Of a stretch of 64,000 nt of DNA, positions 30,319-55,235 are shown in pieces. The stretch lies in NCBI RefSeq assembly GCF_014284125.1, contig NZ_JACOFX010000014.1, forward strand, positions 62,001 to 126,000. Reading direction: 5' to 3'. The notes beneath the pieces are model-generated. The model did no database searches. It was not told the origin of the DNA and was given only the letters and a program-made list of their open reading frames with translations. The stretch's first letter is position 1; each line of letters opens with the position of its first letter. This DNA comes from Undibacterium umbellatum. Its GTDB lineage: Bacteria; Pseudomonadota; Gammaproteobacteria; Burkholderiales; Burkholderiaceae_D. Position numbers and translations under genes: made by a program.

Positions 30319-30325
30319 GTTGTTC

Positions 30326-31633: not shown

Positions 31634-31644
31634 GCTCTTGCTCC

Positions 31645-32400
31645 TCAGGCCACAGCCGAACGATCAACTTCATTGGCAGAGTCGGTTTCTACATGCCCGT
31701 CTGCTTTGGCGTCATACAGCGAAGGCATTTTGCGCACCAGATCGCTGACCTGGCCGTCAATGATGTGCACATTGCGCTGCGCTCTTACGGCCAGCTCAGG
31801 GTCATGCGTTACCATCAGAATGGTGGTTCCCTTGGCGTTGATATCTTCCAGCAATTCCATGACACTGCGCGCCATCTGGGTATCAAGGTTGCCAGTCGGT
31901 TCATCGGCCAGCAAGAGTTTGGGGGAGCCAGCCAGTGCGCGGGCAATGGCTACTCGCTGTTGCTGACCACCCGACAATTCAGCCGGGTAATGCTTCATGC
32001 GCGAAGCCAGTCCTACCTGCACCAGCGCCGCTTCTATGCGGTCCTTGCGCTCGGTCGCATTCAGGCCGCGGTAGCGAAGAGGTACATCGACATTGTCGAA
32101 CAGGTTGAGGTCAGGAATCAGGTTAAAACCCTGGAAGATGAAACCCAGTTTTTCATTACGCAAACGGGTACGGGCATTGTCATTCATGCCTTTGACATTG
32201 ATGCCATCAAGCAGGTAATCACCATCATTGAAATCTTCCAGTAAACCGGCGATGTTCAAGAAAGTCGTCTTGCCGGAGCCAGAAGGCCCGGTAACAGTGA
32301 CAAATTCACCTTCCTTGACATGAATATCAAAGCCGCGCAGAGCATGGGTTTCTATCAAATGGGTGCGATATACTTTGCTCAAATTTTTCATACGTAACAT
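31645..32400 (-). CDS. MacB/LolD-type ABC transporter ATP-binding protein
   Basis: A 251-residue ATPase: Walker A GPSGSGKT, signature LSGGQQQR and Walker B KLLLADEPTGNLD, the pattern of the MacB/LolD family. The ATG at 32400 (MLRMKNLSK) has AAGGA at a good distance; an upstream in-frame codon at 32472 is discarded because it would overlap the adaptor gene. It energises the two downstream permeases. Confidence 0.93.
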   Translation of the reverse strand: MLRMKNLSKVYRTHLIETHALRGFDIHVKEGEFVTVTGPSGSGKTTFLNIAGLLEDFNDGDYLLDGINVKGMNDNARTRLRNEKLGFIFQGFNLIPDLNLFDNVDVPLRYRGLNATERKDRIEAALVQVGLASRMKHYPAELSGGQQQRVAIARALAGSPKLLLADEPTGNLDTQMARSVMELLEDINAKGTTILMVTHDPELAVRAQRNVHIIDGQVSDLVRKMPSLYDAKADGHVETDSANEVDRSAVA

Positions 32401-32431
32401 GGGATATTCCTTCTTGAATGAATGATGGATG

Positions 32432-33700
32432 TTAGTTATTGATAGAAACGCTATTGGCGTTTTCAAATGCATCGGTACCGGATATCACGACTTTGTCGCC
32501 GTCTTTCAAACCACTGAGAATTTCTACTGCTGAGATACTGGTTGCTCCAATCTTGATAGGGCGGCGCTGGGCGACGCCATTTTCCACGACATAGGCAAAA
32601 CGCCCGCCTTCTGCTTCAACAAAGGGGCCGCGTGGCAAGATCATGACATTGGCTTTTTCTTCCATTAGCAAGCGGGCCGAGACGCGCTGGCTTTGGCGCA
32701 GACCTTCAGGTTGCTGGCCGCTGAAACGGACACGGGCGAGTATCTGGTTTTTCACCACTTCAGGTGAGATGGCAGTCAAAGTACCCATGATCTTGTTATT
32801 GTTAATCATGATCTCGGCCTTCATGCCCAGACCCAGGTCTGTCATATACGATTCAGGAATTTCGACTTCGACCTCCAGCTGCGAGAGGTCAACCAGGGTC
32901 ATCAGGGCGGTATTGGCAGCCACCACGCTACGATTCGAAATCGCCAGACTGCCGATGATGCCGTCAACTGGTGCGCGCAATTTCAATTCCTCTACACGGC
33001 GCCTGGCATAGTCCATGGTCAGACGCTGGCGCTGCAACTGGCTTACCTTGGTTTTTAACTCCAGGCTGACATCTTCGCTTTCCAGGTCGGCGGCCTGGGC
33101 AGCATGCTTGGCACGCAGTTCGGTTGAATGCATGGCGTCCTGTGCTTTCAGGAAATCATTCTTGGCAACTACACCGATCACACCAGCCGCTTCTATACGC
33201 TGGAAGGCGCGTTGAGCGGCGACACGCTCTATTTCGGCCTGGTCGGCATCACGTCTGGCGATCAGCTTTTGCTTTTTGGCGAGTATTTGCTGGCGCGCGA
33301 CTTCAGCTTCCAGTTGTTCGGTATTGGATTGTTCACGTTTCAACTGGTCATTCAAATCAGGAGATTCTATCTCGGCGACGATATCGCCTTTCTTCACCGC
33401 CTCTCCCGCATTGACTTTCAGGGTCACCGTGCCACCAGCGCTGGAATACAAAGTCGGGCTGACCGCAGCGACTATCTTGCCATTCACCGAGGCATCCCTG
33501 ACAAGATTGCCATGGCTGACAGCAGCAATGCGCAAGCGTGAAGCATTCACAGACTGGCTGCTGCCGCGCCAGGCCGACATCAGTAATACCAGGGCTGTGA
33601 TACCCACCAGCGTGACAGCACCCGCAATGATCACACGCTTGCTTTTTTGTCCCTTATTGGTGGACATAAGCATGTCCTGGCCTGAAGTGTCTCTTATCAT
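32432..33700 (-). CDS. HlyD/MacA-type periplasmic adaptor of the ABC exporter
   Basis: A 422-residue membrane-fusion protein with one N-terminal helix (about 23-43), a lipoyl-like barrel half (VNAGEAVKKGDIVAEIESP), a long coiled coil (about residues 120-250) and the second barrel half (LRAPVDGIIGSLAI), then beta-barrel and membrane-proximal domains. It links the ABC permeases to an outer-membrane channel that is not encoded here. First gene of the unit; a sigma-54 promoter lies about 35 nt upstream. Confidence 0.92.
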   Translation of the reverse strand: MIRDTSGQDMLMSTNKGQKSKRVIIAGAVTLVGITALVLLMSAWRGSSQSVNASRLRIAAVSHGNLVRDASVNGKIVAAVSPTLYSSAGGTVTLKVNAGEAVKKGDIVAEIESPDLNDQLKREQSNTEQLEAEVARQQILAKKQKLIARRDADQAEIERVAAQRAFQRIEAAGVIGVVAKNDFLKAQDAMHSTELRAKHAAQAADLESEDVSLELKTKVSQLQRQRLTMDYARRRVEELKLRAPVDGIIGSLAISNRSVVAANTALMTLVDLSQLEVEVEIPESYMTDLGLGMKAEIMINNNKIMGTLTAISPEVVKNQILARVRFSGQQPEGLRQSQRVSARLLMEEKANVMILPRGPFVEAEGGRFAYVVENGVAQRRPIKIGATSISAVEILSGLKDGDKVVISGTDAFENANSVSINN

Positions 33701-38881: not shown

Positions 38882-38969
38882 CACCAGGCAGGATATTTCT
38901 GCCTGGTGAGAATAGGTGTTTCAAAGATAATCTATGTGCGGAATTTCTTTTGAGGGAAACTCCGCACAT
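38882..38969. other. Two strong hairpins downstream of the giant gene
   Basis: The first has 10-bp arms at 38882-38891 and 38899-38908. The second has perfect 9-bp ends (38934-38942, 38961-38969) that continue inward after one G/T pair. Neither has a T-run, so they may end or stabilise transcripts of the giant gene (minus) or the small lysine-rich gene (plus) without being classic terminators. Confidence 0.5.
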
Positions 38970-39015: not shown

Positions 39016-42000
39016 TCAGCCAGCCATAAACCTCGCCAGATACTCAGGTGAATTAATAAACTGCCCGATCAGCGTCACCGTATCAGTACCTGACTGCGCC
39101 AGCAGTGCATCAAACGTCGCCTGATCTGGCGCACGACCCAAGAGACCGATGTAATCCAGCGTCAGCGATACTTTGGATTGCGAATTCGCCTTGAACTCCG
39201 TCGATTCCGTAAAGCCTGCCAGCATATCGCCACGGGACAGACCATTCCCTAACTGACCCAACCAGTAAGCTTTACCTGCTGCGTCTGAACCACGGTGCAG
39301 CACATTCTGGTAGACACGGTCTACAAATGCCGTATTGTCCAATGCCCCGTAAGTCTTCTGGAACTCAGCACTGGCCACGAATGAGCTACTGATCTTGGAC
39401 AGGTTCATGCCATCCTTTTGCGCCTGCATCCAGTACGCCAGGCCCTCACGGTCAGGCAAACGGTCAAAGGCGCCAAAGTACAGGCGTGTGATACCGCCTA
39501 TGCCACTCTGGAACTCAGCCGACTCCATAAAGGATGCCGCCACCTGAGCCCGGCTCATCTTGCCACTGTCGATTTGCTGCTGCCAGTACTGCACACCTGC
39601 CGCATCCGCCTCACGGAACAGCACATCGCGGTAGAGCTGCATGGCAAACAAGTCAGAGCGGTGTAGTACATCATTGTCTTTGACATCGACCTTGGTGCCG
39701 ACTTTTGCTTCTATCGCATCGGGGATACCATCGCCATCTTTGTCACCTGGCAGTGATGTACTTGGATTGGTCGGAATCGTGGTTTTAAAGCCCAGACCAC
39801 CAACAAGGCTGATCTTGCCATCGACCTTGCCGTCAGCATCAAAGAGTCCGCCATCAGTGATCTTGAAATCCACTTTCAGTTTGCCGTTCACTGTCGCAAT
39901 ATTAGTGGCAATATTCGTCCAGGTGCCAGCCTTGTCCTGTACCCAGTAACCATTCACAGGTCCGATGGCGTCCGTGTAGAGCGACATTGTGGTTTCCTGC
40001 CCTGCAGTCAGGTCGGTCAGTTGGGTAGTGATCATGCCGTACTGCATGCTTAGTTCTGCCGGCAGCGTCGCTGGCGCTACCGTCGTGTTCACATTGGTTT
40101 GTGACAGGAAATTGCTATTGGCCAGCGTCACATAATGCTGAGTCGCAGCCGTATTGTTATGCCACATCAGGGAACTGACATTCTTCTGTGACTGATCCGG
40201 TATGCCGTCGCCATTACCATCGCCATTGCCCTCACCTTTCAGATTGGGGACTTCCGCCTCTGTCCCTTGAGTAATACCATCACCGTCGGCATCGCTACTG
40301 CCACTATTGGGATTATCTGTTCCGGTGTTGATGCTAAAGGGCTGCGCCACTTCCAGGCTGCTATTACCTGCCAGGTCAATGACCCTGACCTTGAGGGTGT
40401 TGCTGCCAGAAAGTAATTGATTCGGTAAATTCCATGTTGTGCTGCCCGCGGTCGCCAGCGTATTGATCCAGTTGGCACCATTATCCAGCGAGACCTGCAC
40501 GGTTTCCCCCGCCAGCAGACCGGCAGTGAGGCTACCCGAAATGGTCTGGTTGCTGATGGTGGTGATGAAGTCAGTAGCGCTGACACCATCATCATTCGAC
40601 AGACGGACAGAGCCTATGCCCGTTGTCGGCGCGGTATGGTCTACCTGATACAACTGCCCGGTAAAGCCGCCATTGAGTGGCAGACTGGACGTATCCACAA
40701 TGCCTGTGCCACTGCCCTTGAGGTTCAGGCCCAGGGTACCATCACCTGTCAGGCCCGTGATCCTGACGCTATAGGTAGAAGGGTCAAGCTGGGTGACGCT
40801 GCTGATGGTGCCTGCCGCAGTGCCTGTGGTGGCCAGGGCAAAGGCAGCCGCATTCACACCCGTCACCGCTTCACTGAAGCTCACTTTGTACTCTATCGTA
40901 CCCAGACTGGTGTTCTCAGGCTGGATACGGGTAATACCGGTAGCAACAGGCGCAACATTATCGCCAACAGCGATAGTAAAACTCTTCTCATAGGCAGCAC
41001 CCAAGGCATCGGTGGCGCGCACAAAGACACTGTAATTACCCGGCGTCATGCCCACAGGGTTCTTTGCCACCAGGCTATTGCCTGAGATGGTGAACTTGCT
41101 ATTGTCCTTATCATTCGTGCCATTGCCTGTTACCAGCGTGAACGCTGCCGTATCACCAGGATTAGGATCAACCGCAGTCAGCGTACCAACACTGGTATTG
41201 TCAGCAGAGCCCTGCTGTACAGCCGCATTCGACAGTGTGATATTGGTCGGTGCGGCATTGACACCTGTGGCAATCACGGTGGTGGTGTTATTGAGTACCG
41301 CAGAAGCAATACCATCATTGGCACTGATGGTAAACGTCGTGGTTTCTGTGCCACCGACAGGGACACGGCCCGCCGCAGGCTGGAATACCAGGCCACGGAT
41401 GGCGGCCTCAACGGCAGCCGGGGTACCGGCTGCATGGGTATAGGTCAGACCGCCATCGGCGGTTGAGAAACCTGTGGCTGCCAGGGAGGCGGCAGTAAAG
41501 GCTCCTTTGGCGGCGGTATCGAGGCTGATGATGATGGTTTCCGACGCACCCACATCAGGATCGGTGATGGTGACACCGGTGAACGGAGAAACCGTGGTGG
41601 TTTCGGTCACAGTCTGGCCGGCGACAACACCGCCGATGACGGGAGCGACGTTGTTGCCGGTGACGGTAATGAAATTGCCAAACAGGTCTGCGATGACGAC
41701 AGCAGTAGCGGCACCGGTATTCCAGTCTTCCAGCATGCCGATGTTGTAGGTGGTGCTGTCGGTGGAAGAATTGCCATCCTTGTTGAGCTTCAGTGCCAGT
41801 TGCGTCTTGTCGGCGACACTCATGGTCATGGTGAAGCTGGTGTTGGAGGTGATGTCTATATTCGGGGTATCGGTCAGGGTGTAGTTAATGGCACCCTGGC
41901 CGAGGAAGCGGATACGGTTGGCGGTAATGTCGTTGCTGGCCCCTGTCAGGCTCAGGAAGTTGTTGCCCGTGACCACCAGTACGCCCGTGCCGACGTTGTA

Positions 42001-45000
42001 GGTAGCCGAGGTGACGGTAGGTGCCACCACATTGGTAACGGTAACGCCATTGCCGGTCAGATCAGCAATGACGACAGCGGCATCAGCCCCGGCATTCCAG
42101 TCTTCGTTGGCGATCAGGTTGTACGTATTGACACTGGTGGAACTGGTGCCATTCTTGTTCATGATGAGGTTGGCACCCAACCTGTCTGCAGCACTCAAGG
42201 TCAGTGTGAACGAAGTGGCGGAGGTGATCTCGACATTGCTGGTGGTGGTGAGGGTATAGCTGGCACCACCTTCACCTTGCAGGCTGAACTTGTTGGCGAC
42301 GATGTCATTGGTGGCCCCTGTCAGGCCGGTCAGCCCGGTACCTGTGACGGTCAGTACACCGGTGCTGGCGTTGTAGACCGAGGAGGTGATGGTCGGCACT
42401 GCGACATTGGAGACGGTAATCGGGGCCGTGGTGACGGCAATGTTGCCACCGGTAATGACGCTGTCCCAGTCGTCTGCTGCGGCCAGATTGTAAGTCGTAC
42501 CACCGGTTGAGGTCGTACCATTCTTGTTGAACAGGCCTTCAACGGTAGTCTGGTCGGTACCGGCCAGTGTTACAGCAAAGCTGGTGGCGGAGGTGACTTC
42601 GACATTGCCGGTGGTCGACAAAGTCCGGACGACACCGCCTTCGCCTTTGATGGTCAGGGCAGAGACGGTGATGTCATTGGTGGCACCGAGGGTGCTGACG
42701 AGGCCTGTGCCGGTGACGGTCAGGACGTGAGTGGTGACGTCGTAGGTGGCTGAGGTAATGGTTGGGGCAGATACATTGGAGACGGTGACGGCATTGCCGG
42801 TCAGGTCGGCACCCGATGTGGTGGTGGCGTCCCAGGAAGCAGCAGCGGCCAGGTTGAAGGTGGTGGCATCAACGGCCGTGGTGCCAGTCTTGTTCAACAG
42901 GCCATTGACGGCGAGTTTGTCGGCGGCGTTCAGGGTCACGGCAAAGGCGGTACTGCTGCTGGCGGTGACGTTGGGGGTGGTTAAGGTATAAGAACCACCA
43001 CCCTGGCCGACGAGTGAGAGTTTGCTGACATCAATGGTGTCGCCACCGACAATATTGACGGCAGTGACACTCAGAATACCTGTGGCTGCATCGTAGGTAG
43101 AGCTGATGATGCTCGGTGCAGCGTTGGAAACGGTGATGCCATTGCCAGTCAAATCCTGGATGTTGCCACCGGTGATGGCGCTGTTCCAGTCATCGGCAGC
43201 GGCGATGTTATAGGTGGTACTACTGACCGAAGAGGTACCATTTTTATTCAACAGCGCGGCAACACCACCGATATCAGCACCAGTCAGGGTGACGGTAAAG
43301 CTGGTGGCAGAAGTGACTTCAACGTTACCAGTGGCGGACAGGGTGTAGGTCGCACCGCCTTCACCGGTGATGGTGAGCTTGGACATCGTGACGTCATTGG
43401 TCGCACCGATGGTTTTAACAAGGTTGGTGCCAGTGACGGTCAAGACGTTGGTGGTACCGTCATAAGTCGCGGACGTAATCGTTGGTGCGGTGACATTCGA
43501 TACAGTCACAGCATTGCCGGTCAAATCTGCACTGGATGCGGTGGTGGCGTCCCAGTTAGCAGCAGCGGCCAGGTTAAATGTGGTGGTATCAACGGCGGTG
43601 GTGCCGTTGTTGTTCAAGATGCCGTTGATGGCCAATTTGTCGGTAGCGTTCAGAGTGACTGCAAAGGCGGTACTGCTGCTGGCGGTGACGTTGGCAGAGG
43701 TCAGGGTGTAGGAGCCAGCCTGGCCTGTGATCGAGAGTTTGCTGACATCGATGGTGTCGCCACCGACGATGTTGACTGCCGAGACGGACAATATGCCAGT
43801 CGCTGCATCGTAGGTAGAACTCAATATGCTTGGCGCGGCATTGGAAACGGTGATGCCGTTACCAGTTAAATCCTGAATGTTGCCACCGGTGATGGCGCTG
43901 TTCCAGTCATCGGCAACGGCGAGGTTGTAGGTGGTGGCACTGCTGGCAGACGAGGTGCCGTTCTTGTTGAGCAAGTTATCGACTGCGACAATATCGGCAC
44001 CAGCCAGGGTGAAGGTAAAGCTGGTGGCGGAGGTGACTTCGACGTTGCCCGTTGTGGACAGGGTGCGGGTTGCACCGCCTTCGCCAGTGATGGTCAATGT
44101 CGAGATGTTCACATCGTTTGTTGCACCGATGGTCTTGACGAGGTTGGTGCCAGTGACGGTGAAGACGTGGCTGGTACCGTCATAAGTCGCGGACGTAATC
44201 GTTGGTGCGGTGACATTCGATACAGTCACAGCATTGCCGGTCAAATCTGCACTGGATGCGGTGGTGGCGTCCCAGTTAGCAGCAGCGGCCAGGTTAAATG
44301 TGGTGGTATCAACGGCGGTGGTGCCGTTGTTGTTCAAGATGCCGTTGATGGCGAGCTTATCGGCGGCATTCAACGTGACTGCAAAGGCTGTACTGCTGCT
44401 GGCGGTGACGTTGGCAGAGGTCAGGGTGTAGGAACCAGCCTGGCCTGTGATCGAGAGTTTGGAGACATCAATGGTGTCTCCGCCGACGATGTTGACTGCC
44501 GAGACGGACAATATGCCAGTCGCTGCATCGTAGGTTGAGCTCAATATGCTTGGTGCGGCATTGGAAACGGTGATGCCGTTACCAGTCAAATCCTGAATGT
44601 TGCCACCAGTGATGGCGCTGTTCCAGTCATCGGCAACGGCGAGGTTGTAGGTGGTGGCACTGCTGGCAGACGAGGTGCCGTTCTTGTTGAGCAAGTTATC
44701 GACTGCGACAATATCGGCACCAGCCAGGGTGAAGGTAAAGCTGGTAGCGGAGGTGACTTCGACGTTGCCAGTTGTGGACAGGGTGCGGGTTGCACCGCCT
44801 TCGCCAGTGATGGTCAGCGTCGAGATGTTCACATCGTTTGTTGCACCAATGGTCTTGACGAGGTTGGTACCCGTGATGGTGAAGACGTGCGTGGTGCCAT
44901 CGTAAGTTGCAGACGTAATTGTTGGTGCGGTGACGTTGGAGACAGTCACTGCATTGCCGGTCAGGTCGGCACCGGAAGTTCTTGTCTGATCCCAGGAAGC

Positions 45001-48000
45001 AGCGGCAGCCAGGTTAAAGGTGGTGGTGTCCACCGCCGTGGTGCCGTTCTTGTTCAAAATACCGTTGATGGCAAGTTTGTCGGCAGCACCCAGCGTAACG
45101 ATGAAAGACGTGGCACTGGCCGCACTTGGATTGCTGGTAGCCGCTGTCAGCGTGTAAGAACCACCTTCTCCAGTCACACTTAATTTGGTGACATCAATGA
45201 CGTCGTTGGTGGCGATGTTGGCGGCAGAAACCGTCAACATCCCAGTCGCTGCATCGTAAGTAGAACTCAATATGCTAGGCGCGGCATTGGAGACGGTGAT
45301 GCCATTGCCGGTTAAATCAGCAATATTACCGCCGGTGATGGCGCTGTTCCAGTCGTCGGCTGCTGCGATGTTATAGGTGGTGGAACTGCTGGCGGAAGAC
45401 GTGCCGTTTTTATTGAGCAGGCTATCCACGGCCACAATGTCTGCGCCAGCCAGGGTAAAGGTAAAGCTGGTGGCGGAGGTGACTTCGACGTTGCCCGTTG
45501 TGGACAGGGTGCGGGTTGCACCGCCTTCGCCAGTGATGGTCAGCGTCGAGATGTTCACATCGTTTGTTGCACCAATGGTCTTGACGAGGTTGGTACCGGT
45601 GATGACGAACTGATGCGTTGTACCATCGTAGGTCGCAGAGGTAATCGTTGGTGCAGTGACGTTGGAGACGGTCACACCATTGCTGGTCAGGTCAGCGCTC
45701 GCATTGACAGTGCTATCCCAACCAGCCGCAGCAGCGAGATTAAAGGTTGTGGTATCAACGGCAGTCGTACCATTTTTGTTGAGTACACCATTGACGGCCA
45801 GTTTGTCGACTGCACCCAACGTGACTGTGAAAGAGGTAGCACTGCTGGCGGTTGGATTGCTGGTGTCAACTGTCAGTGTGTAAGAACCACCTTCGCCGGT
45901 AAGGCTTAATTTGGTGGCATCAATCGCATCACCAGTCAGCATATTAGTACCAGTGACGGTCAATACACCTGTGCTGGCATCATAGGTCGCCGATGTAATC
46001 GTAGGCGAAACGACATTTGATACCGTAATACCATTGCCTGTCAGGTCAGCAACATTGAGCGCTGCATCAGCGCCGTTGGCCCAGTCATCCGCTGCTGCCA
46101 GATTGTAAGTCGTGCCACCTACTGACTGCGTGCCATTATTATTGAGCAAGGTACGCAATCCAGATTTGTCGGCGGTCGAAAGTACCAGAGTGAAGCTGGT
46201 GTCAGAAGTGATCTCGACGTTGGCAGTATCCGTCAATGCATAAGTGCTGCCACCCTGACCAGTCAGCGTGAACTTATTGGCGATAATATCGTTGATAGCG
46301 CCTGCACGATGGGTAAATCCGGTACCTGTTACTACCAGCGTACCTGTGCTGGCATCATAAGTGGCTGATGTGACGTCAGGTGCCGCCACCGTGTTGGCCG
46401 TGATGCCGTTACCAGTCAGGTCGGCAACGACGACTGCCGGATCAGCACCGGCTGCCCAGTCTTCGGCGGCGGCCAGGTTATAAGTGGTGCCACCAGTGGA
46501 ACTGGCACCATTTTTGTTGATGATCTGATTGACGCCAGATTTGTCGGTCGCGCTCAGAAGCAGGGTAAACGTTGTGTTTGAGGTAATTTCTACATTTGCT
46601 GTGTCGGTTAGCGTATAGGTCGAACCACCTTCGCCAGTCATGGTGAATTTGTTGGCGACGATGTCGTCTGTTCCTCCATTATTCAGGTGAGTGAAGCCCG
46701 TTCCGGTTACCACCAGGCTTCCCGTGCTGGCATTGTAGGTGGCGGAAGTAATGGTCGGCACCTGAACATTACTGACGGTAATGAAGTTGTTGACAATATC
46801 TTTAATGTCGCCCCCTGTGATGACGGTGTTCCAATCGTCAGCACCTTTAACGAGGTATAGTGAAGAGGCAGATGTTGGGAGAGTGCCGTCTTTGTTAATG
46901 TATTGGTTGAGGCCAGCCTTGTCAGCAGCGCTCAGGATGAGTGTAAAGGAAGTAGCAGACGTGATGTCCACATCTGGGGTATCAGTCAACACATAAGTGA
47001 CGTTGCCCTCGCCGCGTATAGATATTTTGTTGGCAGTGATGTCGTTGTTTGACCCAATGGCACTGACTAGATTTGTGCCCGTAACAACGAGTGTGCCTGT
47101 GTTGGCGTCATAGGTGGCAGACTCGAGCGTCGGCGCTGTGACATTGGAGACGGTGACGCCATTGCCGGTCAAATCAGCTGAGGCGGCGGCCGTTACATCC
47201 CAGTTGGCCGCTGCCGCTAGGTTGAACGTAATGGCACCGGTCGCAGACGTAGTTCCGTTGTTGTTCAGTACGCCATTGACCGCAATTTTGTCCGCTGCAC
47301 CTAGTGTGACCGTGAAAGAGGTAGCGCTGCTGGCAGTGGGATTACTGGTAGCTCCAGTGAGAGTATATGAGCCACCCTGCCCAGTAAGTGTAAGTTTGGT
47401 GACATCGATCGTGCCGCCATTGGTGATGTCGGTGCCGGTGACTACAAGAACGCCTGTGCTGGCATCGTAGGTGGCACTGGTAATACTGGTTGGGATGGCA
47501 ATGGAAGTAAACGTCCAGGTCGCATTGGAACTGATGCCGTTATAGGTATTGCTGCCACCATCCTGGAAAGCACCGCTGTCAATCAAGACATAGTAACCAG
47601 TGTTACCTGCAAACGTGGCGGTTGGATTAATGGTGACCTTGCTGTTGGCCCCACCTGTGCCAGCGCTGAAAGTGACTTTTGCGCCATCATTAGCCGCGAT
47701 GGTTTCGAGAACGGCATTGTCAGACTGACGATAAATAACTATATTTTTGGCGGCAACAGCAGTGACGGCCGTGCCAAATTCAATGACAAGGTCGTAATTC
47801 GCTGGCACATCAATGGCACCGGTATTCGGAGACACCACACCAGCAAAATTGAAGGTATTGTTGTCACTGAATTCGTAAGCACCTATATCTACTGTACCGC
47901 CACGTCCAGCACCACGAGCATCGGTCGTGGGCGCACCTGTGGTAGTGCCTGCACTGATTGCATTGCTGCTTGCTGCAATGGCTATGGTTTGAACTGGACC

Positions 48001-49662
48001 ACCGTTAAATGCCAGAGAACCTAAAGCCGAACCCAGAGTAGTGATCGTTCCCGTCAAAGAATTAGTTCCACTTGCTCCTATTGTCGTGAGAACGATGTTG
48101 TTGCTGCCAGTTAAGGTGCCGCTGGTACCTACAAAAACGTCAGTATCGTTAGTCGTGCCATTCGTACTGGAGTTATTAGCGATGATCGTGTTTTTTAAGG
48201 TTAGATTGGTACCTCTTAAATAGAGTCCACCGCCGCCGCTGCTTGGAGCATTTGCCCCAGTAAATGAATTACCAACAATCGTTGAATTGACTATTGTCGT
48301 TAGTCCTGAACCTTGGATTGAGATACCTGCCCCACCTCCAGCGGCATCTGCAGGGGTGCCTGTCGAGTTATTGGCGATGGTTACATTGGTCAATGTGGCA
48401 CTGGTGGATGACCCAACTGCAATCCCGCCTCCATACCTACCCAAGCTACTGCCAGAATTGCCGCTAATCGTCGTATTGCTGATGACAACTTGTTTACCTG
48501 AAACATATGCTCCACCACCATTTCCGCTAGAAAACGTAGCGGTTGATGTGTTATTCGAAATGGTGCTATTACTGATCGTTACATTACTGTTGGTGTCAGA
48601 AAAGAGAAGGCCTGCCCCTTGTTTTGTTGCTGTGCTATTGGTAATGATGACGTGATCCAGTGTCAACGAACCTGAATTCTGGAAAGTAATTGCACCGCCG
48701 CCATAACCTGAATCCGCATTGATGCCCTTGCCATTAGTGAAGGTCATGCCAGAAAGCGACAATGGTGAAGTATCGCCTCCTCCATAGGCGGCAAAAATCC
48801 TTGAGTTATTGTTGCCACTGATAGTCAATAAATTTTCACCAGGACCAACGATGGTCAAGGCGTCGGCATTGCTAGCCGAAGCGGCAACATTTATCTCGCC
48901 AGAAGTTAGTGTCAAGGTGGCTGCGCCACTGGCAAATAATGCCGGATCAAAAACAATGGTATCGGCAGCCGCATTGCCCGTAGCTGATGTAATTGCGGCA
49001 CGCAAAGAGCCTGCACCACTGTCATTCAGATTGGTGACCTTAATAGTTGCAAGATCATATTCATACTGCTGTGCGGAGATGGCTGTGCTTTCCACTGTGC
49101 CGCTATGATATTCCAGTGTCCAGTCGCCACGCACACCAGTGTCATTGGTGGACGCTGCCACATCTGCGCCAGTCGCTTTTGCCAGTTGATTGACAAAGCT
49201 GCTGCCAGCTTCACCTTTGGCAACATCACAGCCATATAGCAAAATATCTGCCCCTGGTGCCAGCGCCTTGTGTATGCTCGCCATGCTGACTTGATAGTCC
49301 GCCAGGTTATATGAGGACAGCATGGTATTACCCATGACCAGATAACCCTCACCGCCATGCGAGACTATGTGAACGGCAGTGATGTCTGCCTTGCCCTGCA
49401 AGGCGTCTGCCATTTGTTGCACGCCATTTTTCAAAGGATCAAGCGTGATCACTTCAGTGCCAGGTTTGATATCCTTGATCAGGCTTTGCCAGTTCTGCAA
49501 AGTGGTATCAACAAACACGATCTCATGTGGACCAACCTGTGCTGGTGAGGGTGCTAGCGCTGGTGCTGCTGCCTGTAAAACAGGTGTTGGCTGCACTACT
49601 GGGAGAGATGCATGATCAGCATCTTGCGCTTGGTTGTTCGGGGATGTGTTAGTTGGGATCAT
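39016..49662 (-). CDS. Giant repeat-rich surface protein (DUF4347, Ig-like repeats, DUF4214)
   Basis: A 3548-residue protein without a standard signal peptide. In order: a DUF4347 domain (about 45-195, with VSHGGEG and [10 protein letters not shown]); a right-handed beta-helix (about 205-600) starting with the [15 protein letters not shown] motif; an SbsA-type Ig-like domain (about 605-710); sixteen tandem repeats of about 120 residues, each opening (I/V)TSATYD-like; cadherin-like domains; acidic calcium-binding stretches ([22 protein letters not shown]); and two to three DUF4214 domains at the C-terminus. The layout is that of type I-secreted adhesins, though no secretion genes are nearby. 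TAGGAA precedes the ATG, 2 nt after the sulfotransferase stop, so the two are cotranscribed. An in-frame TTG at 49668 is less likely. Confidence 0.9.
41650..47490 (-). repeat. Sixteen tandem Ig-like repeats, with 720-bp near-identical dyads
   Basis: Within the giant gene, repeats of about 120 codons follow one another. Repeats 6-13 alternate between a longer type with [12 protein letters not shown] and a shorter type with STYDAATG, so the true period there is about 240 codons. The 60 bases from 43501 are identical to those from 44221, and most bases match over the whole 720-bp unit. This points to recent duplication or gene conversion and to likely copy-number variation. Confidence 0.85.
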
Positions 49663-49664
49663 GA

Positions 49665-50513
49665 TCAATTTCCTATCGCAGTCGGAACAAATTTGGCGGT
49701 AATGACATTGGCGCGGCTACCAGTCGTGTCTTTCCAAAACGATAGCTGGCTATATTGGTGAAACAAATCGGGAGGCAGTATGGTGTCGCGCTCCTGGAAA
49801 CTCACTTCTGGCCTGACCTTGTGCAGGCCTCGCATGCCCAGAGGGGCATCAAATTCAGGTGCGTCATACTGGATATTCTGGAAGTCATGCTCGAATGGTT
49901 CTGCACCGATGAAGTCATAAATCAGGGGCAGCACTTTTTGTGGCGCTTGCGCCAGCAAGTCATAGTCGATCAGCAGCATGGAGCCAGCGTGTTCACTATA
50001 GAAGGCACTTTTCAAGGCCGCCCAGGGGTAACCGACCATGCGGTTGCGCAGAGCCAGGGTCTCTACCCGGCTATAGACCGTTGCGCGTTCATTGTCGTCA
50101 TTGAAGAGGCGGGTGATTTCATAAGGGTCTGCTGCGTATTTACGCTCTATGCTGTCCATGACCCAGGCCACATTGCGTACACAAGCGATCACTTTGGAAC
50201 CGGGGAATTGATCCATCAACATCGGCAGATGGGCTGTCCACATGCGGTTGGTGTCAAACACCACACTCTTCTCAGCGTGTTCAGCATAATAAGAATCAAA
50301 CAATCCACGTACCAGGCGCTTGCGTTCGGCCTTGGTAATTACCGGGCCAAATTCTGTACCTGCGCCAAATTGATGCAACATGCTGGTATATAAAGTGCCA
50401 ACCGGGCTGGTCATGCCCGCATGAAAGCGCGGGTTTTGCAGCAGCAAGGCTGCCAGTAAGGTAGAACCGGAACGGGGCAAACCTGAGATGAAATGATATT
50501 TTGTATGAGTCAT
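49665..50513 (-). CDS. PAPS-dependent sulfotransferase (first)
   Basis: A 282-residue sulfotransferase. The 5'-phosphosulfate loop [11 protein letters not shown] is at residues 10-20 and the 3'-phosphate motif near 107-122 ([15 protein letters not shown]). It would transfer sulfate from PAPS to a hydroxyl on a protein, glycan or small molecule in the cytoplasm. The stop codon is 2 nt before the start of the giant surface protein, the closest possible linkage and the best clue to its target (inference). A PAPS-forming APS kinase is encoded just upstream. Confidence 0.88.
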
Positions 50514-50713
50514 GAGGTCTTCGCGTTCAAACTGAAAATGGCATTAGTGCAATAAATATTAAATTGCTTATCGGCTAGATAATGAAAAATTGATCAATTT
50601 AATAGAGTCCCGTAAGCTCATCGTAAGAAGATAGGAAAGCGTCTATAGTCTGAGATAAAGCCTGCGAGCCGTACCCATCTGATATGAAATGTGTTTTCAT
50701 GTATGTAATATGC
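50514..50713. promoter_or_regulatory. Upstream region of the sulfotransferase-giant operon with a palindrome
   Basis: A 200-bp AT-rich gap. The perfect palindrome AAATTGATCAATTT lies at 50587-50600, about 75 bp before the sulfotransferase start codon. A promoter here would drive the sulfotransferase and the giant gene; no specific regulator is recognised. Confidence 0.4.
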
Positions 50714-51274
50714 TCACATTCTCAAGAAAGTAGTCAGTTGATCAATTGCATCAGCCAAGTCTGTTTGACTGGTATCTATCACACACTCTGCTGAGGTTGG
50801 CGCTTCATAAGGCGCAGAGACACCGGTGAGTTGCAGTGCAGGGTTTTGTTTTGCTTTGGCGTACCAGCCCTTGGGGTCGCGTTGCTGGCAGATGTGCAGA
50901 GGTGTCGAGATATAGGTTTCAATAAATTTGTCATGACCTATGATGCTGCGCGCCAGCGCCCGCCCACGCATGCTGGGAGAAACCAGAGCGACGACGGCAA
51001 AAATGCCATTGAGATTGAGCAGGCGGGCCATTTCAGCGGTCCTGCGGCCTTGTTCTTCACGGTCAGCCAGGCTAAAGCCCAGGTCCTTTGACAAACCCTG
51101 CCTTATTTCATCACCATCAAGCACGCACACTGCAATAGATTGTTCGCGTAGATGCCTGGCTAGGTTTTGCGCAAGTGTTGTCTTCCCCGCCCCGGGCAAG
51201 CCACTTAGCCACCAGGTTTTGACTTTGTTTGCAGCAAGTTCTGTACTGCTTTCTGTTTGATTACTTCCAGGCAT
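50714..51274 (-). CDS. cysC: Adenylylsulfate (APS) kinase
   Basis: A 186-residue kinase that converts APS and ATP to PAPS, the sulfate donor of sulfotransferases. P-loop GLPGAGKT at 25-32, LDGDEIRQGLSKDLGFS, and ALVSPSMRGRALAR are typical of CysC. No cysD, cysN or PAPS reductase gene is near, which separates it from assimilation and fits a dedicated PAPS supply for the two sulfotransferases in this locus. The ATG at 51274 is chosen over a GTG at 51280. A terminator-like hairpin lies just upstream. Confidence 0.92.
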   Translation of the reverse strand: MPGSNQTESSTELAANKVKTWWLSGLPGAGKTTLAQNLARHLREQSIAVCVLDGDEIRQGLSKDLGFSLADREEQGRRTAEMARLLNLNGIFAVVALVSPSMRGRALARSIIGHDKFIETYISTPLHICQQRDPKGWYAKAKQNPALQLTGVSAPYEAPTSAECVIDTSQTDLADAIDQLTTFLRM

Positions 51275-51286
51275 CTGCACACCACC

Positions 51287-51324
51287 GATAAGCTAAAAAA
51301 ATCGGGACTAAGCAGAAACCCGAT
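51287..51324 (-). terminator. Terminator or attenuator just before the APS kinase gene
   Basis: On the minus strand a 6-bp stem (ATCGGG at 51301-51306 with its complement at 51319-51324, 12-nt loop) is followed by a T7 tract, ending about 20 nt before the cysC start. It could attenuate cysC. The T-tract lies in a 16-bp sequence (GATAAGCTAAAAAAAT, 51287-51302) repeated exactly at 51574-51589. Confidence 0.55.
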
Positions 51325-51423
51325 ACGTAACAGATCAGAAATCAGCAGGGGCTGTTTGAATTGGCTTATTGCAAAACTCACAGATGGTGCCAGTCAGTTT
51401 GAAAGGCCAATATTTCTGACTTG

Positions 51424-51456
51424 CAATTTATCTTGGAAAATCAAGAAGATAAATTG
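51424..51456. other. Intergenic hairpin with 11-bp arms
   Basis: CAATTTATCTT (51424-51434) and its exact complement (51446-51456) flank an 11-nt loop, in the middle of the AT-rich 329-bp gap between cysC and the DUF6916 gene. No gene is seen in this gap; it may be a structured leader or promoter region for cysC. Confidence 0.4.
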
Positions 51457-51580
51457 TTAAGTGTTAAATAATTAACTGTAATACTAACATTGAAAACTTT
51501 TTTTGCGCGCAAATGTAACAAAAAAACTGCTAATTAATTAAGTAATTTAGATGAAAAATTTGCATGGCACTGAGATAAGC

Positions 51581-51603
51581 TAAAAAAATTTTCCCCAGGG
51601 AAA
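51581..51603 (-). terminator. Rho-independent terminator of the DUF6916 gene
   Basis: On the minus strand TTTCCC and its complement form a short stem (51590-51595, 51598-51603) directly after the stop codon, followed by a T7 tract. The loop is very small, so the predicted strength is moderate. Confidence 0.6.
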
Positions 51604-51933
51604 TTAATTGAAGATAACCTGATAGTAAACACAAGTGCCGCCATCTTCATGTGGGCGCTGATATTGCCCTTTGGAATGGTCGGCCAGGGTGGGGGCGACA
51701 GTCCAGATGTGTCTGCCCAAGGCGGGGTGCTCGACAAAATAATTATCTTGTGCCAGCGGTTGACTGGAAGATCCTGCAAAAATCAACAACAAAGGGGTGC
51801 GGAATATTTCTGGAAGGCCACGGCGTGGGCGTTCTTCTGCTTCTACCAGTTCGAGGTGAATGATGCCATTCGAGGTTTCGAGTTGAAACTTGTTACCGAT
51901 GAGGGGGTGGACTTGTTCTAAGCTGATGGTCAT
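51604..51933 (-). CDS. DUF6916 family protein
   Basis: A 109-residue soluble protein starting MTISLEQVHPLIGNKFQLET, with the family's pattern of beta strands: LELVEAEERPRRG, TPLLLIFAG, YFVEHPALGRHIWTVAP and a final YYQVIFN. The function is unknown. From memory, this family is often encoded beside phage-tail-collar (MdpB-like) proteins, one of which lies 2.6 kb away. It is divergent from the GNAT gene, with about 90 bp between starts. No strong ribosome binding site. Confidence 0.75.
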   Translation of the reverse strand: MTISLEQVHPLIGNKFQLETSNGIIHLELVEAEERPRRGLPEIFRTPLLLIFAGSSSQPLAQDNYFVEHPALGRHIWTVAPTLADHSKGQYQRPHEDGGTCVYYQVIFN

Positions 51934-52022
51934 GATCAATGTTGTGAAAAGTTTCACTTGCAAGAAAGCACAAGCATAGGCAGGATAATATACATGTTAT
52001 TTTAACCAGCTTGGGAGTGCTT

Positions 52023-52598
52023 GTGTATAAATTACCTGCTGCGCTTGCATTGCGTGAAGTGTATGACGACGATCAGGCTTTTCTGGATGCTCTGTATGCC
52101 AGCCGCCGTGAAGACTTGCGGCAAATGCCGATGGATGCCGCATTCATTGCGCAAATGATCAAAATGCAACAGCATGTGCAAATGGAGGGTGTCAGGATGA
52201 ATTATCCTGATGCCATGCATAGGGTGATTGAGCGCGCTGGTCAGGCTGTAGGGCGCGTCATTATCAATGCAGGCAGTGATGATATACGCCTGATCGATAT
52301 AGCGATTATTCCTTCAGTGCAACGCCAAGGTATTGCCAGGGCTATTTTGCTGGCACTACAGGCCGATGCACAAGGCCAGGGAAAGGGTGTCAGCCTTGCT
52401 GTTGAACAAACCAATTTTGCAGCGCGCGGCCTGTATTTACAATTGGGCTTTGTTGCCATAAGTGCTGATGCCCTGTTTGAACAAATGCACTGGCGTTCAC
52501 AGGCAGCCGCAGAGGAGCAAGCCATGATCGATTTATTGCCAGCCACCACCCTCGCTCACAAGATCACACAACAAGGGCAGTTTGATGCGACAGCCTAG
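52023..52598 (+). CDS. GNAT family N-acetyltransferase
   Basis: A 191-residue protein with a GNAT fold: LIDIAIIPSVQRQGIARAIL carries the acetyl-CoA loop (RQGIARA, consensus Q/RxxGxG/A) at about residues 98-105, and NFAARGLYLQLGF forms the typical helix. It would acetylate an amine on a small molecule or protein. GGGAG lies 5 nt before a GTG at 52023, the chosen start. It overlaps the hydroxylase gene by 14 nt, so the two are coupled. Confidence 0.82.
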   Translation: MYKLPAALALREVYDDDQAFLDALYASRREDLRQMPMDAAFIAQMIKMQQHVQMEGVRMNYPDAMHRVIERAGQAVGRVIINAGSDDIRLIDIAIIPSVQRQGIARAILLALQADAQGQGKGVSLAVEQTNFAARGLYLQLGFVAISADALFEQMHWRSQAAAEEQAMIDLLPATTLAHKITQQGQFDATA

Positions 52599-53304
52599 CC
52601 GTTATCTGAAGTTGCCCTTCAGTTTTGATTTAGGACGCCTGCGTGCCGAACTGCACCAACTCGAAGCCTCAGAATGGATCAGGCATTTCAATACCAATGC
52701 CTACATCAACAACTGGACCTGCCTGCCCTTGCGCGCGGTGGATGGCCGTATTGATCACATCATGCCTGTCAATGAAGGCAATTTTCAGGATACGGCGCTC
52801 ATGCAAACCTCCCCTTATTTGCGGGAAGTTGTCGATACGTTTCTATGTGAAAAAACGTCTGTGCGCCTGATGTCGCTGGAGGCAGGCGGTGTTATCAAAG
52901 AGCACAGGGACGATGGTACTTCGCTGGAGGATGGTATTACCCGTTTGCATATCCCCATCACCACCACGCCGGATGTGCTATTCAAAATCGATGGCGAAGA
53001 AGTGCATTTTTCAGCGGGCGATACCTGGTATCTGAATGCCGCCTGCCTGCATGGTGTAGTCAACCCCAGTAGTCATGCCAGGGTACATTTGATGCTCGAT
53101 TGTGTCAGCAATGCCTGGCTGGAGCAGGTGTTCCTCGATGCTGGCTGGATTGCCAGACCCAAACCAAAATATGATGACCCGGCTATTCATGACGGTAATG
53201 TGCAGGAAGTGATCGCCATGTTGCGCGCGACCGGGCAAAGTGCGGGCTTGCAAATTGCCAGCCGCCTGGAAGCCATACGGCTGGGGCAGGCGATACCTAA
53301 TTGA
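52585..53304 (+). CDS. Aspartyl/asparaginyl beta-hydroxylase-like dioxygenase
   Basis: A 239-residue Fe(II)/2-oxoglutarate oxygenase of the aspartyl/asparaginyl hydroxylase family. Iron ligands are probably H107 in KEHRDDG and H156 in CLHGVVN; R166 in HARVHLMLD would bind 2-oxoglutarate. The family hydroxylates Asp/Asn side chains or related amino acids. AAGGG precedes the ATG at 52585. It lies between the acetyltransferase and a sulfotransferase, so a modification role is likely. The substrate is unknown; the acidic calcium-binding stretches of the giant protein are one possibility. Confidence 0.87.
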   Translation: MRQPSRYLKLPFSFDLGRLRAELHQLEASEWIRHFNTNAYINNWTCLPLRAVDGRIDHIMPVNEGNFQDTALMQTSPYLREVVDTFLCEKTSVRLMSLEAGGVIKEHRDDGTSLEDGITRLHIPITTTPDVLFKIDGEEVHFSAGDTWYLNAACLHGVVNPSSHARVHLMLDCVSNAWLEQVFLDAGWIARPKPKYDDPAIHDGNVQEVIAMLRATGQSAGLQIASRLEAIRLGQAIPN

Positions 53305-53313
53305 ATACAAGAA

Positions 53314-54366
53314 ATGGATAGCATGGAAATCAAACCCGGCTTCGCCGCCGAAGAAAGGGCTTTGCTGCGCGGGCAGCAAATCGATGCGCGAGACTTGCCA
53401 AGCATGCTGGGCTGGTTCCCTGTGGCTATTGAGGCGGGTGCAGGCACACTCTGCTGGCGGCATCTGGGTGAGGCCAGGTTTCTGGAGTCATTTTTTCTTG
53501 ACACATTGAATCAGCAAAGCCGTGAGCACAGGCAAGTTTGCCTGACGCCGCTGGCGAGTTTGCCAGAACAACTGGCCAGCTTGCCGCAGGTGCCTCCAAT
53601 GGCGTTTATCTTTCATGTATCTCGCTGTGGTTCTACCTTGTTGACACAGATGCTGGCATCGCTGCCGCAATGCGTGGTGATGTCGGAGCCACCAGTCATC
53701 GATGCATTTTTCCGCTACTACCATGCGCATCCCGAACTGCAAAATGCGACCATCATTTTCCAGAATCTGATTGCCGCATTGGGTCAAAGACGTTCACCAG
53801 ACGAAAGTCATTTCTTTGTCAAATTCGATAGCTGGCATTTGCCCTGGTTGCCCTTTGTGCGTGCCGCGTTTCCCGCTATACCCATCATTTTTTTATACCG
53901 CGAACCGCAAGCCGTGCTGGCTTCGCATCAGCGTCAGCGCGGACCGCAGATGATACCGGGGTTATTGAATACCACCCGGCTCCAAGCTGCAGCCTCGCAT
54001 GAGCAAGCGGCAAATTTTGATGCTTATGCTGCCAGCATGTTGGTGAGCATGTTACAGGCCGGTTTTGAAAGCGCCGTCTCGCAAGATTTGATTTTATTGA
54101 ATTACAGCCAATTACCAGAAGTCTTATGGGCTGAATTGCTGATGCAGTTTCGACTCGATTGCAGTGAGCAAGATTTGATGAAACTGCAAGCACGCTCTGC
54201 CTTGCATTCCAAGCACAGGCATACCGGCTTTACAGGCGATCCTGCGCCTGCCGTATCTGCGCAGGAGTGGGAGGTATCTACTTGCCTGCAACATTGCAAT
54301 CAAATTTTTCTGCAACTAGAGGAATTGCGATCAAAAGTTAAAATTTGTAAAGTTGTATCAGGATGA
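53314..54366 (+). CDS. Sulfotransferase family protein (second)
   Basis: A 350-residue protein with an N-terminal extension of about 95 residues before the 5'-phosphosulfate loop HVSRCGSTLL (101-110; arginine and serine kept, cysteine in place of serine). A central IPIIFLYREPQAVLAS supplies the 3'-phosphate motif. It follows the hydroxylase by 9 nt in one operon. It differs from the first sulfotransferase, so two different acceptor sites or acceptors are likely. Confidence 0.83.
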   Translation: MDSMEIKPGFAAEERALLRGQQIDARDLPSMLGWFPVAIEAGAGTLCWRHLGEARFLESFFLDTLNQQSREHRQVCLTPLASLPEQLASLPQVPPMAFIFHVSRCGSTLLTQMLASLPQCVVMSEPPVIDAFFRYYHAHPELQNATIIFQNLIAALGQRRSPDESHFFVKFDSWHLPWLPFVRAAFPAIPIIFLYREPQAVLASHQRQRGPQMIPGLLNTTRLQAAASHEQAANFDAYAASMLVSMLQAGFESAVSQDLILLNYSQLPEVLWAELLMQFRLDCSEQDLMKLQARSALHSKHRHTGFTGDPAPAVSAQEWEVSTCLQHCNQIFLQLEELRSKVKICKVVSG

Positions 54367-54554
54367 AAATATTGCAGTGTTATTTCTATATAACAGTTGT
54401 AGAATTGGTTTGCTTTTTTTGAAATTGCTTGTTTGTTTGCATATTGAAAGCCATTGATGAAAGCTCTGAATTCAGACCCGTATCTGGGGATGGATGCAGA
54501 AGAGACTAGATAGCAAGATCCCTGTTTAAACGATAACTTGAATTGGAGTATGCA

Positions 54555-55235
54555 ATGGATGCATTTATGGGTTCCGTATTGGCGGTTGGCTTTAATTATC
54601 CCCCACGTGGCTGGCTTTTCTGCAATGGGCAAACCGTGCCTATCCAGCAAAATTCTGCCATGTTTGCCTTGCTGGGCACCATGTATGGCGGCGATGGCCA
54701 AAATACATTTGGCATCCCTGATTTACGTGGTCGCGTAGTCGTTGGTTCGCAGGCACAAGGGCCAGGTCTGGCCAATGTTTCACAAGGTGAGAAAGCGGGT
54801 AGCAATAATGCGACAGTGATCTCCAACGGTACGGCGACTATCACATTGTCAACAGCAAACATGCCTTCTCATACCCATACCGGAACAGTTACTCTGAGTG
54901 GCATCACCGCAAGCACAACTATAAACGTTGGTGCTGGAACGAATGGTGGTGTTGCTGCTGTCCTGAACAATGGCGGGCTGACCAGTACCGCAACTGGTTC
55001 AGGGACAGCTGCTGCCATATTCTTACCAGCAGGAACTGCGCCAACCAGCCCGGTCGCTTTGGGTGGCGTTACTACGACAGTTTCAGGCTCTGGCACTGTC
55101 AATAACTCAAATACCGGCAGTGGAACTCCATTGACAGTACCTGTCGTATCAAGCGCTACTATCTCCAATATGCAGCCTTATCTGGGTTTGAACTACATCA
55201 TCGCGATGGAAGGTATCTTCCCATCCAGGAACTAA
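54555..55235 (+). CDS. Phage-tail-collar (MdpB-like) protein
   Basis: A 226-residue protein. The N-terminal tail-collar domain (to about residue 80) has GFNYPPRGWLFCNGQ, LFALLGTMYGGDG-like and FGIPDLRGRVVVG, the signature of 'microcystin-dependent protein' MdpB and phage tail fibres. The C-terminal half is rich in glycine, threonine and serine (TVTLSGITASTT, GSGTVNNSNTG), with many possible modification sites, and ends YLGLNYIIAMEGIFP. No phage structural gene is near, so this is a chromosomal member, probably surface-located. GGAG precedes the ATG at 54555. Confidence 0.85.
   Translation: MDAFMGSVLAVGFNYPPRGWLFCNGQTVPIQQNSAMFALLGTMYGGDGQNTFGIPDLRGRVVVGSQAQGPGLANVSQGEKAGSNNATVISNGTATITLSTANMPSHTHTGTVTLSGITASTTINVGAGTNGGVAAVLNNGGLTSTATGSGTAAAIFLPAGTAPTSPVALGGVTTTVSGSGTVNNSNTGSGTPLTVPVVSSATISNMQPYLGLNYIIAMEGIFPSRN

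Follow-up and report, generated by a model that had tools for sequence, protein, structure and literature searches.

To our knowledge, bacteria offer very few documented cases of protein sulfation, RaxX being one of them. In the excerpted account of that system (PMC6637879), the Xanthomonas sulfotransferase RaxST, which is modelled on the tyrosylprotein sulfotransferase (TPST) TPST2 and takes 3'-phosphoadenosine-5'-phosphosulfate (PAPS) as its donor, is encoded in a cluster with the exported RaxX and with RaxA and RaxB; RaxX begins as a precursor of 60 residues that carries a double-glycine leader, and homologues of RaxST turn up in many other settings, where they presumably act on different substrates. 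Here we consider a locus within a 64,000-nucleotide stretch of Undibacterium umbellatum DNA (the window, G000:C9:62001-126000) in which genes for two predicted TPST-like sulfotransferases stand among those for a giant repeat protein, an adenosine-5'-phosphosulfate (APS) kinase, an oxygenase, an acetyltransferase, a DUF6916 protein and a tail-collar-domain protein (Collar). What does such a collection of genes make?

In our labels G and a number stands for a genome, C for a contig of it, and L and a number for a fetched locus; G000, the window's own genome, comprises 6.46 Mb in 103 contigs. ST1 is the sulfotransferase beside the giant, ST2 the one beside AspH, and AspH the oxygenase of the Asp_Arg_Hydrox family. 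Families were called with Pfam and NCBIfam on 30 window proteins, and start codons in the window come from a program's listing of open reading frames (ORFs); in fetched loci the ORFs are mechanical, and several giants there are cut by the ends of contigs or stretches.

The nearest known system is RaxX-RaxST-RaxAB. In both, a TPST-like sulfotransferase with PAPS as donor is encoded next to a protein destined for export (ST1 and RaxST being likened through TPST only), and in one relative, L091, type I export genes also stand by ST1. The adjacent partner here, however, is a 3548-residue DUF4347 protein (small leader ORFs were not searched for), the locus adds Collar, a hydroxylase, a GNAT acetyltransferase and DUF6916, and no C39-type exporter lies beside the window cluster. 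TPST1 and TPST2 themselves (3ap1, 5wri) are the best matches of both modelled sulfotransferases, which keep the PAPS-binding Arg and Ser, but identity is 14-22% and ST1 lacks a Glu at the aligned catalytic position. Solved Asp_Arg_Hydrox oxygenases (4p7w, 1e5r, 7v4f) share family and iron-site residues with AspH, which differs in being coupled to a sulfotransferase, and described tail-collar proteins and DUF4347/DUF4214 giants have the same domains and repeat architecture, whereas the modification enzymes linked to them here differ.

The sequence-only reading from which we started had called bacterial protein sulfation little documented, a remark that must be tempered by the Rax precedent with its clustered sulfotransferase (PMC6637879). 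DUF4347 occurs in a table row of a Burkholderia thailandensis proteome study, as excerpted (PMC12322963). Among the matches listed in the open-licence part of PubMed Central, we found no description of the system under DUF6916, DUF4347, Collar or AspH together with sulfotransferase, or giant-protein sulfation, which is a weak absence. The enzymes of the locus probably add hydroxyl groups followed by sulfate, and protein decoration of that type is hardly known in bacteria.

Two modules joined in one locus

The eight genes lie where the sequence-only reading had put them, in two divergent units, DUF6916-CysC-ST1-giant and GNAT-AspH-ST2-Collar, separated by 47 bp. Counted from its ATG at 49662 the giant has 3548 residues (3550 codons from a TTG) and begins 2 nt past the ST1 stop; GNAT and AspH share 17 nt where their ORFs overlap, and 9 nt separate AspH from the start of ST2. 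This spacing fits two operons diverging from the 47-bp region.

A scan of genome contigs with Collar gave 21 loci (these, with the DUF6916 regions, furnished our sets A1-A5). At 13 the identity of Collar reaches or exceeds 59%, the sources being seven Undibacterium, one Burkholderiales metagenome-assembled genome (MAG), three Methylobacter/Methylovulum and two Acidovorax, and AspH, GNAT and DUF6916 are all found in the fetched stretch at 13/13, together with a DUF4347 giant at 10, ST1 at 8, ST2 at 8 and CysC at 6. Where the cluster lacks ST2, in five Undibacterium genomes, one strong ST2 match lies elsewhere; ST2 is thus present in 13/13 genomes. The nearest relatives of the window cluster are those of Undibacterium and a Burkholderiales MAG. 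Named strains that carry the cluster include U. pigrum DSM 19792 (L024) and U. hunanense CY18W (L021). At greater distance, a Flavisolibacter locus (L034, Bacteroidota) packs Collar, ST2, CysC and AspH into 4 kb, and two loci of one genus in another order (L166, L171) carry AspH-ST2-GNAT-DUF6916-Collar and a DUF4347 giant, the DUF6916 label being weak in both (about 30 bits). The remaining seven loci of the scan (L035-L041) have no AspH label.

The same picture comes from 200 genomes of the order (completeness at least 90, the same draw for every family). AspH and ST2 each occur in 5/200, in the identical five genomes and adjacent in 5/5. DUF6916 occurs in 16 genomes at 20 places, with a Collar gene in the mapped region at 20/20; Collar itself is in 45/200, DUF4347 in 34/200 (58 places) and ST1 in 5/200 (seven places). 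In the 14 genomes that have both families, Collar lies within 6 kb of DUF4347 at 11 of 31 places, against 0.16 expected. AspH stands by Collar in this draw only in G000 and G080; in G096, G163 and G193 the AspH-ST2 pair is away from the Collar-GNAT-DUF6916 locus. The cluster is accordingly best described as two joined modules that also occur apart, ST1 with its giant, and Collar-GNAT-DUF6916 with AspH-ST2; AspH, ST2, GNAT and DUF6916 more often keep company with Collar. Co-occurrence in related genomes, to which the sequence-only reading had looked for its check, is therefore what we find, at 13/13 Collar loci and in the order and phylum counts; its "dedicated cassette" survives insofar as the enzymes are tied to exported surface-type proteins, though as two separable modules and not as one. 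That the locus is a conserved functional unit seems to us very probable.

An oxygenase coupled to a sulfotransferase

A wider survey covered 377 genomes of the phylum, with at most seven AspH and five ST2 candidates scored in each, so that absences are soft. AspH was found in 21/377 (13 genera) and ST2 in 11/377 (7 genera), and all 11 lie within the 21. The two P values calculated for the AspH-ST2 pairing, kinship being ignored, are 3.9e-10 and 7.5e-16, or 1.9e-7 and 3.6e-10 by genus. Among the ten genomes besides the window's, the two genes are 41-328 bp apart in nine and 8.9 kb apart in G395. When the surroundings of all 20 other phylum AspH places were fetched, three further genomes proved to have AspH fused to Sulfotransfer_3 (L169, L170 and L174, two of them sharing a genus), and at L172 and L173 AspH adjoins a gene with TPR and Sulfotransfer_3 domains. 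In sum, AspH is coupled to a sulfotransferase in 5/5 order genomes and 16/21 phylum genomes. Because it is mostly paired with or fused to one, the simplest reading is that AspH makes the hydroxyl that gets sulfated, and we consider such sequential hydroxylation and sulfation by AspH and ST2 likely.

Other replicons offer variations. Two Acidovorax loci (L110, L111) have an ST2-like enzyme, an oxygenase-sized protein and a DUF4347 giant in a row; the middle protein was tested in L111 and belongs to PF13640, and its counterpart in L110 has the same size and place. From its family and position it looks like another kind of oxygenase in the role of AspH. On a Diaphorobacter plasmid an AspH match lies inside a coding sequence annotated as a sulfotransferase, beside an IPTL-CTERM protein. 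A side observation concerns an Asticcacaulis plasmid (L179), where a sulfotransferase, AspH, a 636-residue sulfotransferase, an unannotated AspH match and another sulfotransferase follow a TonB-dependent receptor.

The 5'-PSB Arg and 3'-PB Ser of the PAPS site are R14 and S121 in ST1 (10/10 sequences) and R104 and S204 in ST2 (9/9). AlphaFold models of these sets, with mean predicted local distance difference test (pLDDT) values of 71 for ST1 (10 sequences) and 76 for ST2 (9 sequences), suggest sulfotransferase folds, and Foldseek matched both best to TPST (E 2.5e-8 and 2.0e-5; template modelling (TM) score 0.36-0.55); the ST1 profile likewise matches TPST first. E125 of ST2, invariant in 9/9, falls by a weak alignment on the catalytic Glu of TPST. 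AspH scores 58 bits against a cut-off of 22.6, with iron-site residues H108, D110, H157 and H169 in 13/13. The name "Asp/Asn hydroxylase" that it had been given is that of its family, to which score and iron site assign it; the nearest solved relative is an L-proline cis-4-hydroxylase (4p7w, E 7e-16), with an entry named proline oxidase (1e5r) and a beta-hydroxylase (7v4f) among the further ones.

As for PAPS, we had thought that CysC might be the sole APS kinase of its genome, an idea ruled out by a second strong match (G000:C15:389066-389515). APS kinases are present in 19/19 genomes searched and in 11/14 controls, so presence alone is uninformative.

Giants, Collar proteins and their partners

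ST1 lies just upstream of a DUF4347 giant at four of its seven order places (G000 twice, G163, G193), which are the four strongest. In G036 two ST1 genes stand between a contig-cut 950-codon ORF with an M10 peptidase domain and genes for C39-ABC, HlyD and OEP; G080 has one weak match. At the second place in G000 (L087:8584-14130, contig C18) another ST1 directly precedes another DUF4347 giant, which is truncated where the contig ends; the fetched stretch there has no Collar, AspH or CysC label. Two other DUF4347 giants of the same genome (L155) have no ST1. In a tree of 70 DUF4347 rows, none dropped, whose bootstrap had yet to converge, the ST1-linked domains are scattered (6 changes, no fewer than 5 of them forced), and a single clade of ST1-linked giants, which we had entertained, is unsupported, as they fall in several separate places. 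Since ST1 adjoins giants of several lineages, including one without Collar, we favour the giant as its substrate. As an observation apart, ST1-like sulfotransferases at 27-30% identity occur in Synechococcus phages and marine viruses (records H11-H18).

The DUF4347 domain keeps the His of an SHG motif in 68/70 rows and the Cys of a YGC motif in 69/70, with HG in 68/70 and 67/70. We take this HG and Cys pattern to resemble caspase-like peptidases of clan CD, and self-processing of the giants is possible.

Export of the giant by a type I system is likely on this analysis, because export genes stand close to giants or to ST1 in relatives: L026 has OEP and HlyD genes after its giant, L113 and L118 have HlyD genes next to their DUF4347 giants, and L091 has a full type I set beside ST1. 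The arrangement is not universal, since four genes that we had considered in L027 turned out to be Glu_cys_ligase, HSP70, EAL/GGDEF and DUF4124. Downstream of the window's giant, at 29071-33700, lie an HlyD adaptor, an ABC ATPase and two MacB/FtsX-type permeases, a MacAB-like group, and C39/ABC-like exporter genes occur elsewhere in the genome.

What, then, does the AspH-ST2 pair sit with? Collar is in the fetched stretch of 7/21 phylum AspH genomes (the window's, G236, G392, G395, G404, G270, G348) and DUF4347 in that of 4/21 (the window's, G270, G348, G566); of these G236, G392 and G395 are of one genus and G270 and G348 of another, and G566 shares a genus with G336. In G566 and G336, CysC-AspH-ST2 adjoins an OEP gene and a Big_12-repeat protein, and L167 holds ST2, AspH, CysC, OEP and a giant. 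Oxygenase-sulfotransferase pairs accompany giants without a Collar label in L110, L111, L167 and L168. No giant label is present in L031-L033, L157 and L160, where AspH, ST2, GNAT and DUF6916 accompany Collar, or in L090, where AspH, ST2 and GNAT do; because these enzymes follow Collar in this way we favour Collar as their target. On sequence grounds the giant, Collar or both may thus be the modified protein, as had been proposed.

Collar proteins mostly end in G-[IVL]-[FY]-P, and 14/21 rows from AspH loci have EGIFPSRN, the strongly conserved C-terminus of the window's Collar (55209-55232), which, judged from this conservation, could be a recognition or modification site. The second residue of Collar in 61 usable rows is S (20), D (19), A (12), E (5), T (3), R (1) or M (1); the set had 107 rows, of which 40 lacked an anchor and 6 a start in range, and some loci are counted twice. 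The Collar N-terminus as a GNAT substrate is a lead only. Three more divergent Collar matches occur in G000 (L088, contig C48), where the fetched stretch carries no label for GNAT, DUF6916 or DUF4347.

An ORF of at least 1000 codons is present in 13/17 of the DUF6916 regions from the order draw, an uncontrolled count in which mechanical ORFs can be spurious. The five large ORFs tested with Pfam have Ig, fn3, Calx-beta or beta-propeller repeats, two with autotransporter domains; as these are diverse repeat proteins, Collar-GNAT-DUF6916 appears to accompany several kinds of giant surface-type protein. At L165 (L165:8544-20000, G404) a PF13640 oxygenase, AspH, a formyltransferase, Collar and a cadherin-repeat giant stand in a row, which gives this pairing of Collar and giant a different complement of modifying enzymes; a 432-residue protein without a Pfam match is there as well.

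Features of the locus in the window (positions in the 64,000-nucleotide stretch)
Feature	Position	Strand	Remarks
Giant repeat protein	39016..49668	-	DUF4347, choice_anch_Q, choice_anch_U, repeats, DUF4214
DUF4347 domain of giant	49069..49521	-	residues 50-200 of the 3550-codon ORF; 5.9e-50
Best DUF4214 stretch of giant, near C-terminus	39184..39387	-	residues 3428-3495; 1.9e-43
ST1	49665..50513	-	Sulfotransfer_3, 1.1e-11; model nearest tyrosylprotein sulfotransferases
CysC, APS kinase (putative PAPS supply)	50714..51280	-	APS_kinase, 5e-50
DUF6916 protein	51604..51963	-	DUF6916, 6.1e-15
Spacer between divergent units	51964..52010	.	47 bp
GNAT acetyltransferase	52011..52598	+	Acetyltransf_1, 3.5e-11; best NCBIfam match RimI, below its cut-off
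AspH	52582..53304	+	Asp_Arg_Hydrox, 1.3e-15
ST2	53314..54366	+	Sulfotransfer_3, 8.1e-9; partner of AspH
Collar, tail-collar-domain protein	54543..55235	+	Collar, 3.7e-26; conserved start MDAFMG at 54555
Terminator-like hairpin 3' of giant	38934..38969	-	14-pair stem; consensus scan only

A proposed decorated surface fibre and rival readings

We propose, with about an even chance of being right, that the locus makes a decorated surface fibre. CysC would supply PAPS to the sulfotransferases. AspH would add a hydroxyl to a side chain and ST2 would sulfate it, the substrate most likely being the exported Collar, the giant while still unfolded in the cytoplasm, or both. ST1 would sulfate the giant, as RaxST does RaxX, and a type I system would probably then export it. 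GNAT and DUF6916 would serve Collar, the one by N-terminal acetylation and the other as a folding or delivery partner. The gene content and its conservation, the AspH-ST2 pairing and the fusions, the modelled sulfotransferase folds with their PAPS-site residues and the linkage of ST1 to several DUF4347 lineages are observations. We infer from them which proteins are the substrates, in what order the reactions run, which residue is modified, how export takes place and what GNAT and DUF6916 do; whether the substrate is a protein of this locus at all is, to our minds, a question evenly balanced. More tentative still, though a possibility worth stating, is a general two-step decoration in bacteria, in which a 2OG oxygenase places a hydroxyl on a side chain and a dedicated sulfotransferase sulfates it, leaving O-sulfo-hydroxy residues on secreted giant adhesins and on Collar proteins as their phage-tail-like tips, by means of separate genes, fused enzymes and interchangeable oxygenase families.

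Several observations weigh against the proposal. ST1 has no Glu at the aligned TPST catalytic position, and the nearest solved relative of AspH is named for free proline. No C39/ABC_membrane exporter and no OEP was found by Pfam among the 30 window proteins. ST1 is missing from 54 of the 58 DUF4347 places in the order draw (at one, L129, no upstream gene was present to inspect), and for that reason we regard it as a specialised and not a general partner of these giants. The 12 ST1-linked giants, compared without a formal statistic with other DUF4347 giants above 800 residues, are not visibly different in tyrosine density or acidic context, and a tyrosine or tyrosine-acid signature is unsupported by that comparison. 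AspH had no sulfotransferase partner in the regions checked in G403, G513 (where it lies 1 kb from a contig end), G404, G398 (where it lies between two TonB-receptor genes, L175) and G552. The stray ST2 genes of the five Undibacterium genomes (L105-L109) have no other labelled cluster gene in the surrounding 20 kb. The fetched stretches around the AspH-ST2 pairs L100-L102, L158, L163 and L164 show neither a Collar nor a DUF4347 label, and the same is true of those around AspH alone at L161 and L162 and around the fused or TPR-linked forms at L169, L170 and L172-L174; with many pairs lacking those labels nearby, the tie of the pair to Collar and DUF4347 proteins is frequent, not general.

Such pairs invite a reading, which we find rather improbable, in which the surface genes are mere neighbours and the product of AspH and ST2 is a small sulfated metabolite, or else their target is a free amino acid or a short peptide. 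The proline names of the solved relatives would suit it, as would a Streptomyces plasmid on which a related oxygenase accompanies P450, amidinotransferase and ATP-grasp genes, and biarylitide clusters, 17 of which are reported with sulfotransferases and one with a predicted aspartyl/asparaginyl hydroxylase (PMC13417212). It sits poorly with the Collar and DUF4347 linkages counted above, although several of those genomes share a genus, and with the different oxygenase family that, with an ST2-like enzyme, precedes a giant in Acidovorax. Sulfation of a surface glycan, or of a glycan carried by the giant, in place of side chains is less probable again: there are weak NodProtNoeE matches, and heparan sulfate sulfotransferases rank behind the TPSTs in fold searches of both models, but TPSTs are at the top of both, no glycosyltransferase family was found among the 30 window proteins, and fusion of oxygenase to sulfotransferase points to a newly made hydroxyl.

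Doubtful too, though less improbable than these two, is a third reading: the giant would be the target of ST1 as a RaxST-like tyrosylprotein sulfotransferase, and AspH and ST2 would serve something else in the cell. The ST1-giant pair without Collar at L087, the several lineages of linked giants and the TPST matches of the ST1 profile and model all agree with it; the want of a tyrosine signature and the unkept catalytic Glu do not. That the genes are neighbours by chance, or the remnant of a prophage, is hardly credible. Collar domains are phage-tail-like, but Collar is the sole such protein among the 30, with no other phage structural family found by Pfam, and the genes adjoining it are of the PrmC, DsbB, RF-1 and GlutR families; conservation, the AspH-ST2 pairing in order and phylum and the proximity of Collar to DUF4347 contradict chance. 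We reject both.

Why should the locus matter? The conserved cluster resides in named Undibacterium strains and includes an APS kinase of its own, a pair of TPST-like enzymes and a tightly coupled oxygenase, so that both the sulfation of large bacterial surface proteins and the existence of a hydroxylate-then-sulfate pathway become directly testable. It also brings DUF6916, the Collar proteins and the DUF4347 giants together in one functional setting.

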